Assembly: GCA_914767715.1 (NCBI GenBank)
Contig: OU612073.1
Span: forward strand, 15,624,001 to 15,688,000
Origin: Membranipora membranacea
Lineage: Eukaryota > Bryozoa > Gymnolaemata > Cheilostomatida > Membraniporidae
Direction: 5' to 3'
Length of the DNA stretch: 64,000 nucleotides
Shown: piece after piece, positions 7,213-61,000 of the stretch
How positions within the stretch are numbered: position 1 is the first letter of the stretch
Layout: every line of letters starts with the position of its first letter
Translations under genes and position numbers: made by a program
Notes under the pieces: generated by a model
Told to the model about the DNA's origin: nothing
The model's database searches: none
What the model saw: only the letters and a program-made list of their open reading frames with translations

Positions 7213-9224
7213 CTAGAATTGATTGGAAGGTGCAAGTTTAGACTGAGATGGGGAACTTGTACCGACACAAACTGTAGCACAGGCTTGAGCGCAGGCACAG
7301 TAACCAAATCCACATACACACCCTCTGATGCAGGCTGTAACACAAGCCCTGTCCCTTTTTGCAATGCTGTGTTCATCTAGTTTCATCATGGCTAAAAAGG
7401 AATACCATGAATCGATCAACGGGAAAATTCAACTATAATACAGCTTGGGTTTCATTGATTCATCATTTCAATTATTTCCTTTTCCTCAAGATATCATGAC
7501 TGATCGCATGTTTACAAACAATTATGGTAACGTAAGTTCGTTGTCATGCACATACACACAACTCTGCTAATCTGCTTTCGATCAAAAAGAGGTAATCTAC
7601 CCGAAGACAGGCCCGGGATTGGGGGGGGGGGGGGGGGGGGGGGTTTACTCCCATTGCCTCTGGTCATGCACAAAAACAACACTCTGTATCTATAAAAAGG
7701 TGTAACCTACCTCCATCTTGTGCCGCTGGTATTTTGACCATCCACTGATAACCATCAGTACAGTGTTTATGTGCTGCCGGAGAAATGAAGCTGACATCAT
7801 CAATCTTCCCTGGCAGCAACTGGAACTGAATGTCCTCTTCGGAGGTCATTGTGATGTTTTGTCCGTCTTTATCAGCAAGGAAACTCTCTAAGCTGTACCC
7901 ATCCTGCGATGTGAATGTGGCCGGCATGACGAGACATAAACCACTATCTGGCATCTTGGAGATGTGCAACCCCTGTAAAATAACCAAACAATGTTAATGT
8001 AGGTGAAAATGCACTCATTTTAATGATTCCAGGTATCATTGTTTTTGTCAACGAGTCCAATTGATTGCAAGAAATTTTATAGCTGGTGATTTAATGTTCT
8101 TAGAGATACAGCTCATTATCATTTTGGTTTAAAATAATATATGATGAGCCTAAAGTGGATGTTTTAAGTTTGATGATATAATGTCAAATTTAAACAAAAA
8201 ACATAGGAGCCAAAAACTCAGTTCCAGGTATCATTTTGGAGTTGTATTTTCTTTTAACATGAGAAGGTAACACCTGCTTCTTGATACCCAGTGTGTGTTG
8301 CCTCCCTTGTTGCATGCAATCATAGAAACCCAACAATCCCCTTCTTTTCCTTTAATAACTTCACTACATCCATTTACACATGTTTGCACATGAAGGGTAA
8401 TTAAAATATTATTTATTCTGCTGACCTTGTTATAGTCTTGAAGGTTGAAAGAGCCGTCCTCACCCAGATACATGGCAATGTTCTCATTTCGGTTGTATGA
8501 GACCTCTTCATCATCTATTGGTTCCTGCAAAAAAACCGCTTTTCTTAAAAATCCATGTATAGCTAAAATGTTGTAAACTAATGTGGTCTTGTAAGACGTA
8601 AGTCAGGTTTATAACTTTTCGAAAGCTCTCTTTTGCCAGTGTAGTGTGGGATGTGTTTGAGGAAGTGGTTTCACTTAATGAACTCTCAACCCTATGGGGC
8701 TCATCATGAGAACCGTGTCCAACAACGATTGATAAGACTAAATGTTTGATGACCAAAAGTACAACATTGAAGTTAATTCCATAAAGACCATTTCAGTATT
8801 GATTTAAGTAATCACCTGTTCTCCGCTGACAAAGTGCACATGTTCAGTGATATCAGAATCTGTTGTCTGTGTCTGTCTGTGACAAGCACCTGTTGAGGAG
8901 TGTAACTGGGTGTATATCAGAGTACCAACAGCGCTTGTCAGGAGTACTGTCAGTATGAATGTGCTAGCTGCCAGGAAAGACCTCCCATCTGATCTAACAG
9001 TTTTCTCCATCTGTTGAAATGAAGTCACGATAAAAACTCAGAGACATGCGTATGAATATCAATTTTAACATACAGATATAGTTGTTACAAGTACTCTGAG
9101 GCGAGAAAGTATCACATTATAAAAGATTTAAAAGTCACACCAGCATATAAATGCAAAAATGTTTGTTACTCTGAAAGCAGCAGGTGTTTTCTGCAGCTCT
9201 CACCTTAATATTTTCAGTGTCCAT
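7213..9224 (-). CDS. BRICHOS-domain type II membrane proprotein with C-terminal 8-Cys peptide
   Basis: Five coding exons on the minus strand: 9204-9224, 8816-9010, 8426-8524, 7711-7972, 7213-7391. All have GT-AG borders and compatible phases, giving 251 aa. A short cytosolic N-terminus is followed by a hydrophobic anchor (residues ~18-43), a linker, and a BRICHOS-like domain with the typical signature (Asp102 in FNLQDYNKGLHISK, Cys118 in GLCLVMP, Cys176 in HKHC). Residues K204-R205 form a dibasic processing site. After it come eight cysteines spaced C-x3-C-x3-C-x-C-x4-C-x-C-x3-C-x3-C (209-234), a mirror image about the turn GFGY, then a 17-residue tail. In known BRICHOS precursors (such as arenicin-type annelid peptides) the domain chaperones a C-terminal beta-hairpin peptide released by proteolysis. 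By inference this is an antimicrobial or other secreted hairpin peptide precursor. Intron 4 holds a 23-G run. Confidence 0.8.
7621..7643 (+). repeat. Homopolymer run of 23 G
   Basis: Uninterrupted G tract on the plus strand (C tract in the transcript) inside the last intron of the BRICHOS gene. Its length in the assembly may be unreliable. Confidence 0.9.
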
Positions 9225-9292: not shown

Positions 9293-9300
9293 CTTTTATA
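9293..9300 (-). promoter_or_regulatory. TATA-like box of the BRICHOS gene
   Basis: The minus strand reads CACTATAAAAGCTGCAG here, about 70 bp upstream of the proposed ATG at 9224. A start site about 30 bp downstream would leave a short 5' leader. This position supports the small first coding exon chosen for the gene. Confidence 0.5.
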
Positions 9301-22205: not shown

Positions 22206-22448
22206 ATGCTTATAATGTCAGTACCAAAAATGGGCACTTGAGATATGTAGTTATATTCAGCCAGCCGCAGAAGTCAGAGGGTACAGATAGAAATGGAAAC
22301 AAATGCACCCAGTAACCTCCATGGTATTTTGTAGTCACAAGCATACACAACGAGCAGAGAGACGCAGAAGTAATCCATCAAAGATGTAGCGACGATAACC
22401 GCAGCATGCTAATCCGGTCAGGAAATAGGAATTCCAGTGACGCAGTAA

Positions 22449-22890
22449 TTTGGTTTTCCAACACGTCATAGTACCAAGTACCAAGTAATCTCCAGGGTGA
22501 CACAGAAGTAATTAACCAGGAAGTAACAACAACAAAGTCAGCCCAAAAATAGAACAACAAATTCCAGAGGGTAGACTGAGGAACAGCAGCAATATACCAC
22601 GTGATGTGACCACAGAACGGTTTCATATAACGAAGCCACAAGAGACACTAATCCTAGTACCAAGTACCAATTAATCTTCAGGAATTTGGTTTTCCAAAAC
22701 GTCATAGCACCAAGTACCAAGTAATCTTCAGGATGACACAGAAGTAATTAATCATGGAGTAACAACAACAAAGTCAGCCCAAAAATAGAACAATAAATTC
22801 CAGAAGGTAGACTGAGGAACAACAGCCATATACCACGTGACGTGACCACAGAACGGTTTCATATAACAAAGCCAAAAGAGACACTAATCC
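22449..22890. repeat. Two-copy tandem duplication, period 236 bp
   Basis: Copies 22449-22654 and 22685-22890 are about 93-95% identical by eye (TTTGGTTTTCCAA-ACGTCATAG ... AGAGACACTAATCC). The linker contains a partial third copy of GTACCAAGTACCAA-TAATCTTCAGG. Non-coding. Confidence 0.85.
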
Positions 22891-23400
22891 ACTAATCCGC
22901 CGACAGCTAATCAAACGACAACAAGCAGAGTCAGCAAAAAAATCGGCACCTATATAAAGGCCGAAATTTTGAACAGTAAATTAGTACAGTTTAATTATTT
23001 GAGCAGCACAGTCAACTTTTTACATAGCTAGTAAAAGACATTATATTTTGATTTAATAAATACTAGTTTTAAATCAAAGATCTTTGTTGGAACGCTAACA
23101 CTAAAGTGGAGTCTAAGGACCAATATATACTGTGAGTATCATTTGAATTACATTATCATTTTTTTTATAAGTATCAAGACAATAAACAATAACTTTAGTG
23201 AATATACTGTTGTAATTGATTTCTATGCATATAGTAATTGGCAAAGTAATTAGGGACAGTTCGTCAGGTACTCAGACGTTAGGTCATATTCACTAAGAGT
23301 TTATAAGGCAATTTTGCAATCAACTAAAGTAAGTCGTTGTTAATTGTTACTATAACAACACTCTGAAACAGGATTCAAAATTAACTTTAGGAGGTTTAAT
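22891..23400. other. No gene recognised
   Basis: Flank between the 236-bp duplication and the minisatellite. Nothing supported. Confidence 0.5.
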
Positions 23401-23707
23401 CATTGTGACCCACCATAAACGCATGTAATTCGCGTAGGTGCTCATGTCAAAGTCGGAAATCATTGTGACCCACCATAAACGCATGTAATTCGCGTAGGTG
23501 CTCATATCAAAGTCGGAAATCATTGTGATCCACCATAAACGCATGTAATTCGCGTAGGTGCTCATATCAAAGTCGGAAATCATTGTGACCCACCATAAAC
23601 GCAGGTATTTCGCGTAGGTGCTCATATCAAAGTCGGAAATCATTGTGACCCACCATAAACGCATGTAATTCGCGTAGGTGCTCATATCAAAGTCGGAAAT
23701 CATTGTG
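23401..23707. repeat. 60-bp minisatellite, five full copies
   Basis: Five head-to-tail copies of exactly 60 bp (23401-23700) plus the first 7 bases of a sixth, differing at only a few positions (for example T at 23529 in copy 3 and GCAGGTATTT in copy 4). The unit is a multiple of three, so the minus strand stays open through the array with a 20-residue repeat (core DFDMSTYANYMRLWW). The visible differences change amino acids where they fall, there is no gene around it, and coding is unlikely. Confidence 0.95.
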
Positions 23708-24897
23708 TAAAGTGGAACAGAATTAATTAGTATTCATATTTGCTTGGGGGTTAAATAGATTAAGTTTCGGAATAATAGTTTAGGATTAGATTCTTGTGTT
23801 TTAAAGAAGTAGGACGCTACCGATTTAAGATAAGATACCTCTAATCTGTGAAACATTAATTCAACATTGAATATAGAAATTGAACATTAATTTTAGAGTG
23901 ACCACAGACTGATACCTCTTTCCTTCACTAGAAATTGGGTTGGAGTCTTTAGCTAATTTAACTTGGCTAAGAGGCCTGTGATACTGATACACCGCCTTGA
24001 TTACCTGATTGGGCTTCCAGGCACTATACAGAGATCAAGTAGGTGCTTATAAATAAAATCAGTCACCTAAGTTGAATAAAAAAAAATATCAAACGTACCT
24101 GAACACATTCATAAATAGTGATTGTGTCATATAATCATCTAAGGATTATATTGACTTTGTGGTGTAAGAGCATTGTCTCGAAACTCATCAAGAGTTTTAC
24201 TGTTAGAACAAGACAGGGGTCTTAGCAGGTTATCGGCAGGAACCTTTCTTAAACAACTTGAAGGCAACTTCTAGTGAAGCTAAGAAGAGGTCAGGCTCAA
24301 TAACAACCCCGTAGTAAATTGCTTTGTGGAGTAGTGGGAACCAGCTGTTCGTCACTATAAATTAATAAGTTAAATACCTCGTACTCACCAGAGTGCTAGC
24401 ATTACCAATTGGAACCACGTTTTAATAGATTTGAGCGATCTTGTCTTTCTTCAGTGCATGAAAGAGGAGGTAACTCCAAATTAGAACTACAAATAAATTA
24501 CACAATAAAGTGACATTTTGAAGTGTCCGGAGTGCAAGATTTAAAACCATAACTACAAACATAGTTAGAACCAATTTTTAAGTAGGACGGTTATAGAACA
24601 ACTATACATACTAATAGTACACGGCATTTACTTTAGTATAGGATAGGACGACAATTTCCGTTCCTTACAGCATAGACTCTCTTAAAGTATATGCGCACAG
24701 TGAGTGAGTTACAATTTCCGTTCCTCACAATAACCTCCACACAGTCACTGATCTAAGCACACAATACAGCACTAACTTGAGTAAGTGTAACGTGTTGGTA
24801 GAGTATTGGTTTAGTTCAGTGAGTGGGGAGGCTACTAGACTTGTAACTAGTAAGTAAGCTGAGTAAGTAGTAGTAATAGTAATACCTACAGTAAAGT
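23708..24897. other. No gene recognised
   Basis: Contains only a short direct repeat (ACAATTTCCGTTCCT at about 24,651 and 24,711). No supported gene. Confidence 0.5.
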
Positions 24898-58074: not shown

Positions 58075-61000
58075 TTATTTCTTAGCGAGTGCTGACAGCA
58101 TATCTACCGGCAGTGGGAATATAATAGTACTGTTATTCTCTGCTGCCACAGTCTGTAACGTCTGTAGATATCTGAGCTGTAAGGCTGTACCTGATGATGA
58201 GATAACGTCAGCAGCTTCCTTCAGAGCTCGTGATGCTCTCTGTTCTCCCTCGGCAGCGATCACCTACAGGCAGCGGATAATAACATCATACAGTGATAAA
58301 ATGGTTGATTAAAATCAGGTGTCTTATAGCACGCCAAAATATTAGTTGCCTTAGTGGCAAGGTCATAATGTCTGCGCCAGGTTGTTCTCTGTTTGCAGGC
58401 AGGTTAGAGCACACCTGTTGGCCAACCGAACCCCAGTAGGCGATGGACTACAGTGGGATTTGTACCCACGACCTTCAACATTAGCATGCTAAAGGAGCAG
58501 CGCTCTCACCAACTGAGCCACCTTGATTGTGAGATGTTGGTGTGTAAAGTAACTCATATGAAGTTGGGGTTTTATTGACTTGGTTTACGCGCTCCTATTA
58601 ACTAGCCTAGAGGATTTAATATTAGCTATAGTTTAGCTAGCTAGTTTGAGGGTGACTTTATGTTAGCTATCACCAAATTTTGGCTTGCTTATTTAGGAGC
58701 TCATGTAAAGTAAAGAGGGTGGCGGAAGTGCTAGCAGCCAAAATTTACTGACTGACAGCAACATTTTTTGCTTAAATTCAAAGACTCAGCAATGATTAGA
58801 AAATGTCATATCAGTCAATCCCATGCATCACTTACTATCTGACATTGATATGCTTACATATGCATGCGATCACCCATATCATGTTCTTCATTTTGGACTT
58901 GATATCTTATCTAAGGCTGCTTCATATAGAATTTGATGTACCGATAATGGGGTATGTGCCAAACAATGACATACCATCACCATGATTATGAGACAATTAA
59001 AAATCCATATCTCTGACTGGTAGAGAATCCACAGAAGGAGTTTGGTGAGACCACCCAATGACAAAGTATTAAGGGGCTGATACATATTAGGTACTGAGAC
59101 TAAATTGACTCTAATTATCGGATATACAGCTGTTAGTAGTGTAATCTCTGATGTTTAGTGGTGGAGAGTGATATGGAAGTAATCAATTCTGTTTATAAAC
59201 CAGTTATACGATTGAAGAGCCCTAGCTACGCTTCCATCAGGGCACTACTGTAATATCAAATGTAGGATAGAGCTACGGAGACAATGCTTTAGAGCATAAT
59301 GTGTGAAATTTAAACTCCGTTTTCTTCAAAAGATAATATTTTTATAATGTGCAGACTTTTATATCACTAGTAACTTTTTAGCTCTACAAAACCAATATTT
59401 CTTAACCATAACGGCAGAGACAGAATAAAGTATATATATATATATATAAGAGAACTTTCACAAGGAAGAAGTTGCCTTACCTTAGCCTTAGCTTCTCTTG
59501 ATGCTTCAGCCTCAGCCGCCATTGATCTCTGCATCGATTGTGGTAATCTAACATCCTTCAACTCTACTCTCTCAACCTGCAATTAGAGAGATCAATTATG
59601 TTAAAGCAAAGCGGGTTATTCTAATTTTCAGTTTAAAGTGATTTCGTTCTTGGGCTGGGCATATCTAAAAGATGTGAGCTGAAGGTACCCAACCCATTCC
59701 CTATTGGACACCAGTGTATGAATCAGATCTTAATGAAAGCATTCTGCTAAATGCATTTCTGGCTCTATCTACAAAGACCCTTCAGATATATGTGTACTCA
59801 ACTCCTGGTCTAAGCACAAAAATGGATTAGCTACTTCACTGACCTTGACACCCCAGGGGTCGGTAGCCACATCCAGACTCTCCTGTAGATTATGAGCTAT
59901 CTCATCTCTCTCACTGAGTATCTCAGATAGGTTCCTCAGACCGAGGTGGTTTCTCAGTGTAGTCTGGGCTAGAAGCTGGGTGGATCTGTGTGCGTTCTCC
60001 ACAGACTTAATACTACGCACTGGATCACTGATACGGTAGTAAGTCACAGCGTCAACGGCAACTGTCACGGAATCTTTAGTCAAAATCTATAAGAAAGGAT
60101 TAAAAACTGTCTAAAATATAGGGAGCTCATGTCATCATCTATATCGTAGTCTGTATCAACATAGTTTTACCAACATCATTACAAAGAGATCACCAGCATC
60201 CAGCAAAATTAAATGAGGATTTCCATGAAAGTTGTTAATGATCCTTTTTGGTCATTGATTGAGCTGAACATCCTACCTCCTGAGGTGGGACATCATAGGT
60301 GATAGTTCTCAGATCCTGTGTCATGATCGTATCCATACAGGGTAGGATGAAAAATAGACCTGTCAAATATGACAAGAAAAATTCTTATCAAAATTACATG
60401 AGGAGATACACAGTGCTTTCTCTTATTCTCAAAAGACGCGAAAAGATCTATGCATAATTTGAGAGAGTAAAGAAAAACTGCATTTCAACATACATTTGTA
60501 ATTAACACCTGAGAATTTTTCTGCTATGTATGTGTTCCACTATCAAAGCTGTGAAATTTGTATGGTAGTCAATTCAACGTTAGTCATGGCTCATTAATAA
60601 AGGGAAAACTATGATTCCCCGCAGATTTCCTTTTTCCTAGGTTAGTAGAGATGAGAAGTTAAGCGACAGTCTACAAGACAGAATGATATTGAGTTTGTTA
60701 TGCAATGCTTGCCAAACGATATGCTTGTTGCAGTACATTCACTCACCAGGTCCTCTTGCCCCTCCGGCGATTCGCCCCAGTCTGAATATGACAGCTCTCT
60801 CATATTCTTGAACCACCTGTTATCACAAAAAAACACTATTTTTTATATTACAAATACAGAACAACCAATTGAATTCCCTGATAAAAACATTTAAGAGAAA
60901 TTTGATATACCACAATGCATTGTTATCACTGAACTAATACTTCCATTTCATCATCAAATTGGAAAGTTAAGGGGTTAAGATCTTTCTCATTGGAAGGCAT

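Follow-up and report, generated by a model that had tools for sequence, protein, structure and literature searches.

A five-exon gene and its tandem duplicate

The window, by which we mean the whole 64-kb stretch of DNA that was analysed, harbors on its minus strand a gene of five exons that join into a single frame of 251 residues, with GT-AG boundaries at all four introns (Table 1). The last exon (7391-7213) continues exon 4 (7972-7711) in phase, with the junction falling between G and CC, as the initial annotation had proposed. The encoded precursor comprises an N-terminal hydrophobic stretch (the anchor in exon 2, assigned by eye to approximately residues 18-43), an acidic linker, a BRICHOS-like region, the dibasic pair Lys204-Arg205, and a tail of 46 residues.

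Table 1. Features of the precursor gene, with positions in the window
Feature	Position	Strand	Content or basis
TATA box (TATAAA)	9295..9300	-	71-76 bases upstream of the start codon
Exon 1	9204..9224	-	start codon, MDTENIK; counterpart in the tandem paralog L031
Exon 2	8816..9010	-	hydrophobic anchor and linker
Exon 3	8426..8524	-	acidic linker, then the first part of the BRICHOS-like domain, including Asp102 (QDYNK)
Exon 4	7711..7972	-	bulk of the BRICHOS-like domain, with Cys118 and Cys176
Exon 5	7213..7391	-	last exon: peptide and stop codon (TAG)
Lys204-Arg205	7354..7359	-	candidate proprotein convertase site
Predicted released peptide, residues 206-251 (46 aa)	7216..7353	-	inferred from the frame and the dibasic site
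Eight-cysteine core, C-X3-C-X3-C-X-C-X4-C-X-C-X3-C-X3-C	7267..7344	-	spliced frame, scans, paralogs

A tandem duplicate of the entire gene lies approximately 10 kb outside the window (locus L031, G000:C9:15613842-15615455). The duplicate has intact counterparts of all five exons and four introns and thus keeps the exon chain first read in the window; it shares the upstream block as well. Over 247 aligned codons, dN between the two genes is 0.043 and dS is 0.265; the values are 0.010 and 0.413 for exon 4, and 0.045 and 0.100 for the 30-codon stretch of the peptide core, which differs at only five nucleotides and is not readable alone. The introns are 73-84% identical, and the coding substitutions are distributed 15/4/34 over the three codon positions. 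Because the duplicate is intact, dN lies far below dS, and substitutions follow this pattern, the comparison identifies the window gene as a real gene under purifying selection and not a chance frame.

Elsewhere in the window, a 60-base tandem repeat (23398-23707; 5.2 copies, 97%) lies within a minus-strand open frame (23350-23733) that reads it as repeats of 20 residues, and a 236-base unit is present in 1.9 tandem copies (22443-22890; 92% matches). A Band_7/SPFH (stomatin-like) exon is located on the minus strand at 59769-60086 (E 6.9e-16).

The BRICHOS-like domain and its family

The conserved residues that mark BRICHOS domains, an Asp and two Cys (PMC10182729), correspond in the window protein to Asp102, Cys118, and Cys176. 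A search of the genome with this protein, covering 339 Mb in 18 contigs of which one carries COX1, yielded 63 exon matches. By hand count, a BRICHOS exon is present at 32 places with E <= 0.001, the window's own included, which implies a large family in this genome; stop codons occur within the matched stretch at six of these places, in some cases because the match runs past the exon. Twenty of the paralog places were read as long loci; two others, L028 and L029, were read with 1.5-kb flanks. Both cysteines are invariant among the 21 sequences of the exon 4 alignment (the window gene and 20 paralogs), and the Asp of exon 3 is present in 19 of the 20 paralog loci; in the remaining one, L039, the end of the exon was not captured.

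A profile of exons 3 and 4 built from 19 genes matches human Bri2, the one known BRICHOS protein compared by profile, with a probability of 87.5 and an E value of 3.6e-6 (hhalign). Of the 116 columns, 39 are aligned, in the region of the Asp and the first Cys and without the second Cys, and none of 200 shuffled Bri2 controls reached the same score; the profile of exon 4 alone gives a weaker match (probability 48, E 1.9e-4). When scanned singly, 7 of the 21 members match the BRICHOS family PF04089 (best E 0.017), more than match any other family. Pfam finds no BRICHOS match in the window protein or in its BRICHOS part, and the window member matches no family. An AlphaFold model of exon 4 (pLDDT 69.3) shows the order E-E-H-E-H-E; with this model, which is incomplete because it lacks exon 3, Foldseek/VIA returned no BRICHOS entry. 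Sequence-profile similarity to a known BRICHOS protein supports a BRICHOS-like domain, and together with the C-terminal Lys-Arg it bears out the precursor architecture of the initial annotation, even though Pfam is negative for the window protein itself.

Cysteine spacing and hairpin register among paralogs

Downstream of Lys204-Arg205, the last exon encodes eight cysteines at residues 209, 213, 217, 219, 224, 226, 230, and 234. Their gaps of 3-3-1-4-1-3-3 are mirrored around a central GFGY, so that dibasic site and spacing are both as originally described. Eight Cys can be laid out over 26 positions in 134,596 ways when the first and last positions are both Cys; 220 of these layouts (0.0016) are mirror-symmetric and 20 (0.00015) combine symmetry with odd arms, odds that carry no correction for other features that might have caught the eye. 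Across all six frames of the 64-kb window, the full pattern (central loop of 2-6 allowed) occurs once. Recurrence in paralogs is a better test of the spacing than such layout odds.

The exact spacing recurs in 2 of the 20 long paralog loci, the tandem duplicate L031 and locus L032 on contig C11; it was not found among the possible last exons of the other 18, several of which have competing candidates. When the window and 54 loci (344,431 bases including overlaps) were scanned in all six frames, an eight-Cys mirror layout with odd arm gaps was present only in the window gene, L031, L032, and a CQCQ microsatellite run in L041. Used alone as a genome query, the last exon matches only the window gene and L031; similarity searches therefore cannot show how frequent the layout is. 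L032 is approximately half identical to the window gene in the BRICHOS region, and the two cores share all eight cysteines but only 3 of 18 other residues. L032 lacks intron 4 and carries BRICHOS region and peptide in one open frame, separated by a short collagen-like linker. In the tree, it does not group with the window gene but with L033 and L034 (support 98/98), within a five-gene clade that also comprises the window gene and L031 (support 90/91, not starred). Since the spacing straddles the split of this clade, it was probably present in the common ancestor of the five genes, all of which retain I-x-K-R at the dibasic site.

The only relatives encountered outside this genome are two short environmental proteins (P0001 and P0002, from short ENA contigs), both of which end before the peptide. 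They are relatives of the clade; the start of one matches exon 2, and the other resembles exon 4 (72% identity over 46% of the L032 query).

The geometry of the core is more widely conserved than its spacing. In the window gene, L031, and L032, the four nested Cys pairs share one register sum (27, 27, 27, 27), and the offsets within each arm are even, which places all cysteines on one face. Equal sums are the condition for directly opposed rungs, giving the core the appearance of a hairpin. The spacing in L034 is 3-5-3, with sums of 16 and 16; the inner six cysteines of L033 are spaced 1-1-4-1-1, with sums of 15, 15, and 15. L033 has three cysteines before the loop and five after it, the last two lacking a partner in that register. 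By layout counting, the chance of symmetry with odd arms is 0.038 for L034 and, uncorrected for their selection, 0.006 for the six chosen cysteines of L033. A register that is kept while the spacing changes is what a disulfide-laddered hairpin predicts. The initial annotation had named loss of the spacing in relatives as grounds for rejecting its reading; the spacing is exact in L031 and L032 and altered in L033 and L034, whereas the hairpin register suggested at the time extends to all four (in L033, to the inner six cysteines only).

An AlphaFold model of the peptide, proposed as a further check, agrees with the hairpin only in part. The model (3 alignment rows; mean pLDDT 56.4, pTM 0.30) is weak. 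It has two short inner strands, one spanning residues 11-14 of the modelled peptide and the other residues 17-20; pairing of the two across the turn would match the register expected for rungs C3-C6 and C4-C5. Neither outer arm is modelled as a strand.

The last exon of L033 (G000:C11:10072655) alternates Cys with His or Gly and adjoins collagen-like Gly-Gln-Pro stretches; its peptide may be a metal binder or may fold into a ladder denser still. At L040 (G000:C3:31875790), a candidate last exon encodes, after Lys-Arg, a long alternating Val-Glu strand followed by a Val-Arg stretch and two cysteines, possibly a salt-bridged hairpin with one disulfide. L041 and L042 (G000:C11:4766350 and 4834642) are near-identical duplicates whose downstream candidate last exons contain a repeat that reads as Cys-Gln in one frame and as Met-Ser in another. 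An open frame at L052 (G000:C8:9565500-9566300) encodes Lys-Arg and, downstream of it, repeats of Cys-Pro-Pro, a collagen-like run of Gly-Gln-Pro, and clusters of Cys. Giant collagen-like open frames of 4750, 4493, 3777, 3058, 3201, and 1813 aa (e.g., G000:C4:16160690-16173322, C4:25475667-25488131, and C4:25453829-25461595) are perhaps cuticle collagens of the annelid type. Such frames and the BRICHOS peptide family would point to an annelid.

A predicted disulfide hairpin and its known counterparts

We consider it reasonably probable that the locus is an intact BRICHOS-type pro-peptide gene of a large family, whose released peptide is a four-rung disulfide hairpin that acts as a secreted effector. 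How the precursor is processed and chaperoned, how its cysteines pair, and what the peptide does are inferred as follows. The precursor would probably be a type II membrane protein, the BRICHOS-like domain of which most likely shields the beta-prone, Cys-rich C-terminal segment in the ER until the disulfides have formed. Cleavage after Lys204-Arg205 by a furin-like convertase would then free the 46-residue peptide. Its 26-residue core would most likely fold into a two-stranded hairpin around GFGY, with the four rungs C1-C8, C2-C7, C3-C6, and C4-C5 all on the same face. This rigid hairpin would be the conserved product, leaving the opposite face free to vary. The likeliest role would be that of a secreted defence or surface effector that acts outside the cell and does not rely on positive charge; the defence role is the weakest link of this explanation.

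A conventional BRICHOS antimicrobial peptide of the arenicin/capitellacin type, i.e., a cationic, amphipathic, membrane-disrupting hairpin with additional disulfides, is an unlikely alternative. The precursor plan matches that of published marine-worm BRICHOS peptides, transmembrane precursors included, and the outer gaps of tachyplesin and capitellacin comprise three residues. The pattern given for these two peptides, C-X4-C-X4-C-X4-C (PMC10745061), has the same central four-residue gap as the window core. Net charge is +2 for the window peptide and likewise for its core, but it is spread over 46 residues in the former, and it is +1, -3, -1, and -4 in the four clade relatives, the negative values belonging to the three C11 members. 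Annelid BRICHOS antimicrobial peptides are described as enriched in positive charge, but the same source describes HfBRI-75 and HfBRI-91 as Cys-rich BRICHOS peptides without clear positive charge (PMC10745061). Because the five clade peptides differ in net charge (+2, +1, -3, -1, -4), the arenicin-type action envisaged in the initial annotation is not favoured; an antimicrobial role of the window peptide is possible, but charge does not support it.

Rather unlikely is a helical hairpin or another pairing that does not form a ladder, such as C1-C4/C5-C8. The CX3CX3C motif would also fit one face of a helix, the second arm contains Ala and Gln, and the AlphaFold model of the peptide has three helical residues at 26-28; however, the CXC motifs in both arms and the CXCXC of L033 do not suit a single helical face, and a register sum that stays constant over three different spacings fits a hairpin. 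It is improbable that the peptide serves a structural role in cuticle, mucus, or tube, as a disulfide-rich knob on collagen or as a cross-link of it. Such a role would agree with the collagen-like linker ahead of the eight-Cys core in L032, the Gly-Gln-Pro repeats of L033, and the matches of the L032 linker to giant collagen-like frames in the genome, but these matches are weak and of low complexity (E about 0.1-10), and the peptides of the window gene and L031 have no collagen-like stretch. A metallothionein-like secreted peptide, in which the CXC and CX3C thiols hold Zn or Cu and form no disulfides, is quite improbable, since the CXC pairs of the core, the alternation of Cys with His or Gly in L033 (6 His, 8 Cys), and the four His of L034 are set against the lack of His in the peptides of the window gene, L031, and L032, against a mirror symmetry and constant register that metal binding does not need, and against the oxidising environment of the secretory pathway.

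If the laddered hairpin is accepted, a more specific proposal can be made, though only tentatively: a hairpin folded under the guidance of BRICHOS and closed by four cross-strand disulfides in one register, whose cysteines move only in register-preserving pairs while other residues and charge are free, and which in one branch sits on a collagen-like stalk, would constitute a new peptide scaffold. In that case, BRICHOS domains would chaperone disulfide ladders in general and not cationic antimicrobial hairpins alone. Should the pairing be right, the core would be a naturally evolved 26-residue hairpin that carries a fourfold disulfide staple and leaves one face free, and it could serve as a scaffold; the BRICHOS domain would handle an extreme client of disulfide folding. 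Selection that retains the Cys register but releases charge is relevant to the question of whether annelid BRICHOS peptides are all antimicrobial. Given the relatives in this genome, comparisons with more species could test the register rule directly.

Among the closest known counterparts are the annelid BRICHOS peptides arenicin, alvinellacin, capitellacin, abarenicin, and HfBRI-25, as described in PMC6780910, PMC9410094, PMC7761999, PMC6265681, and PMC10745061. Their precursors are reported to consist of an N-terminal hydrophobic region, a BRICHOS domain, and a C-terminal Cys-rich, double-stranded beta-sheet (PMC6780910), with a dibasic cleavage site ahead of the peptide (PMC6265681, PMC10745061) at which a furin-like cut is commonly inferred (PMC10745061, PMC9410094); transmembrane precursors are described for Heteromastus (PMC10745061) and spoon worms (PMC9410094). 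The window precursor likewise has a hydrophobic N terminus (by eye), a BRICHOS-like domain, a dibasic site, and a C-terminal peptide. Unlike the annelid hairpins, which by these accounts carry at most two disulfides and are for the most part cationic, its peptide has eight Cys in 26 residues, is nearly neutral, and has anionic relatives. It resembles HfBRI-75 and HfBRI-91 of Heteromastus filiformis (PMC10745061) in being Cys-rich and not clearly cationic, but those peptides, compared by description only, have 75 and 91 residues, 11 Cys, and models with pLDDT of 30-60. Since both have been reported, non-cationic Cys-rich BRICHOS products are already known. As in the annelid families, BRICHOS is conserved while the peptides are highly diverse.

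Four disulfides following a BRICHOS domain are not new, and with OAF, chondromodulin, and hepcidin as four-disulfide precedents, the initial claim of a new class was overstated. Hepcidin has no BRICHOS domain and a different spacing with adjacent cysteines, and we know of no mirror Cys spacing in chondromodulin-I or tenomodulin. According to its description, OAF shares the BRICHOS domain, a convertase site, and nested cysteines, and an AlphaFold model shows it as an extended antiparallel hairpin held by four disulfides; its mature part, however, has 70 residues (204-273) versus 46, and its pairing is modelled, not solved (PMC9714404). Chondromodulin-I and tenomodulin are described as type II membrane BRICHOS precursors from which furin releases a C-terminal domain with eight Cys and four disulfides, but that Cys-rich domain has about 70 residues and is confined to vertebrates, according to PMC11173128. 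Hepcidin is a short, ladder-like hairpin with eight Cys and four disulfides (PMC9989193). The cyclic cystine ladder of theta-defensins has parallel disulfide rungs across two antiparallel strands, as predicted here, but with three rungs and six Cys in a head-to-tail cyclic peptide of primates (PMC10096437), versus eight Cys in the window core. The terms "four disulfide" and "eight cysteine" are absent from the text of a 2026 review of beta-hairpin antimicrobial peptides (PMC13001179), and the open literature searched yielded no BRICHOS peptide with this compact mirror spacing. What appears to be new is the placement of eight cysteines in 26 residues on one conserved register.
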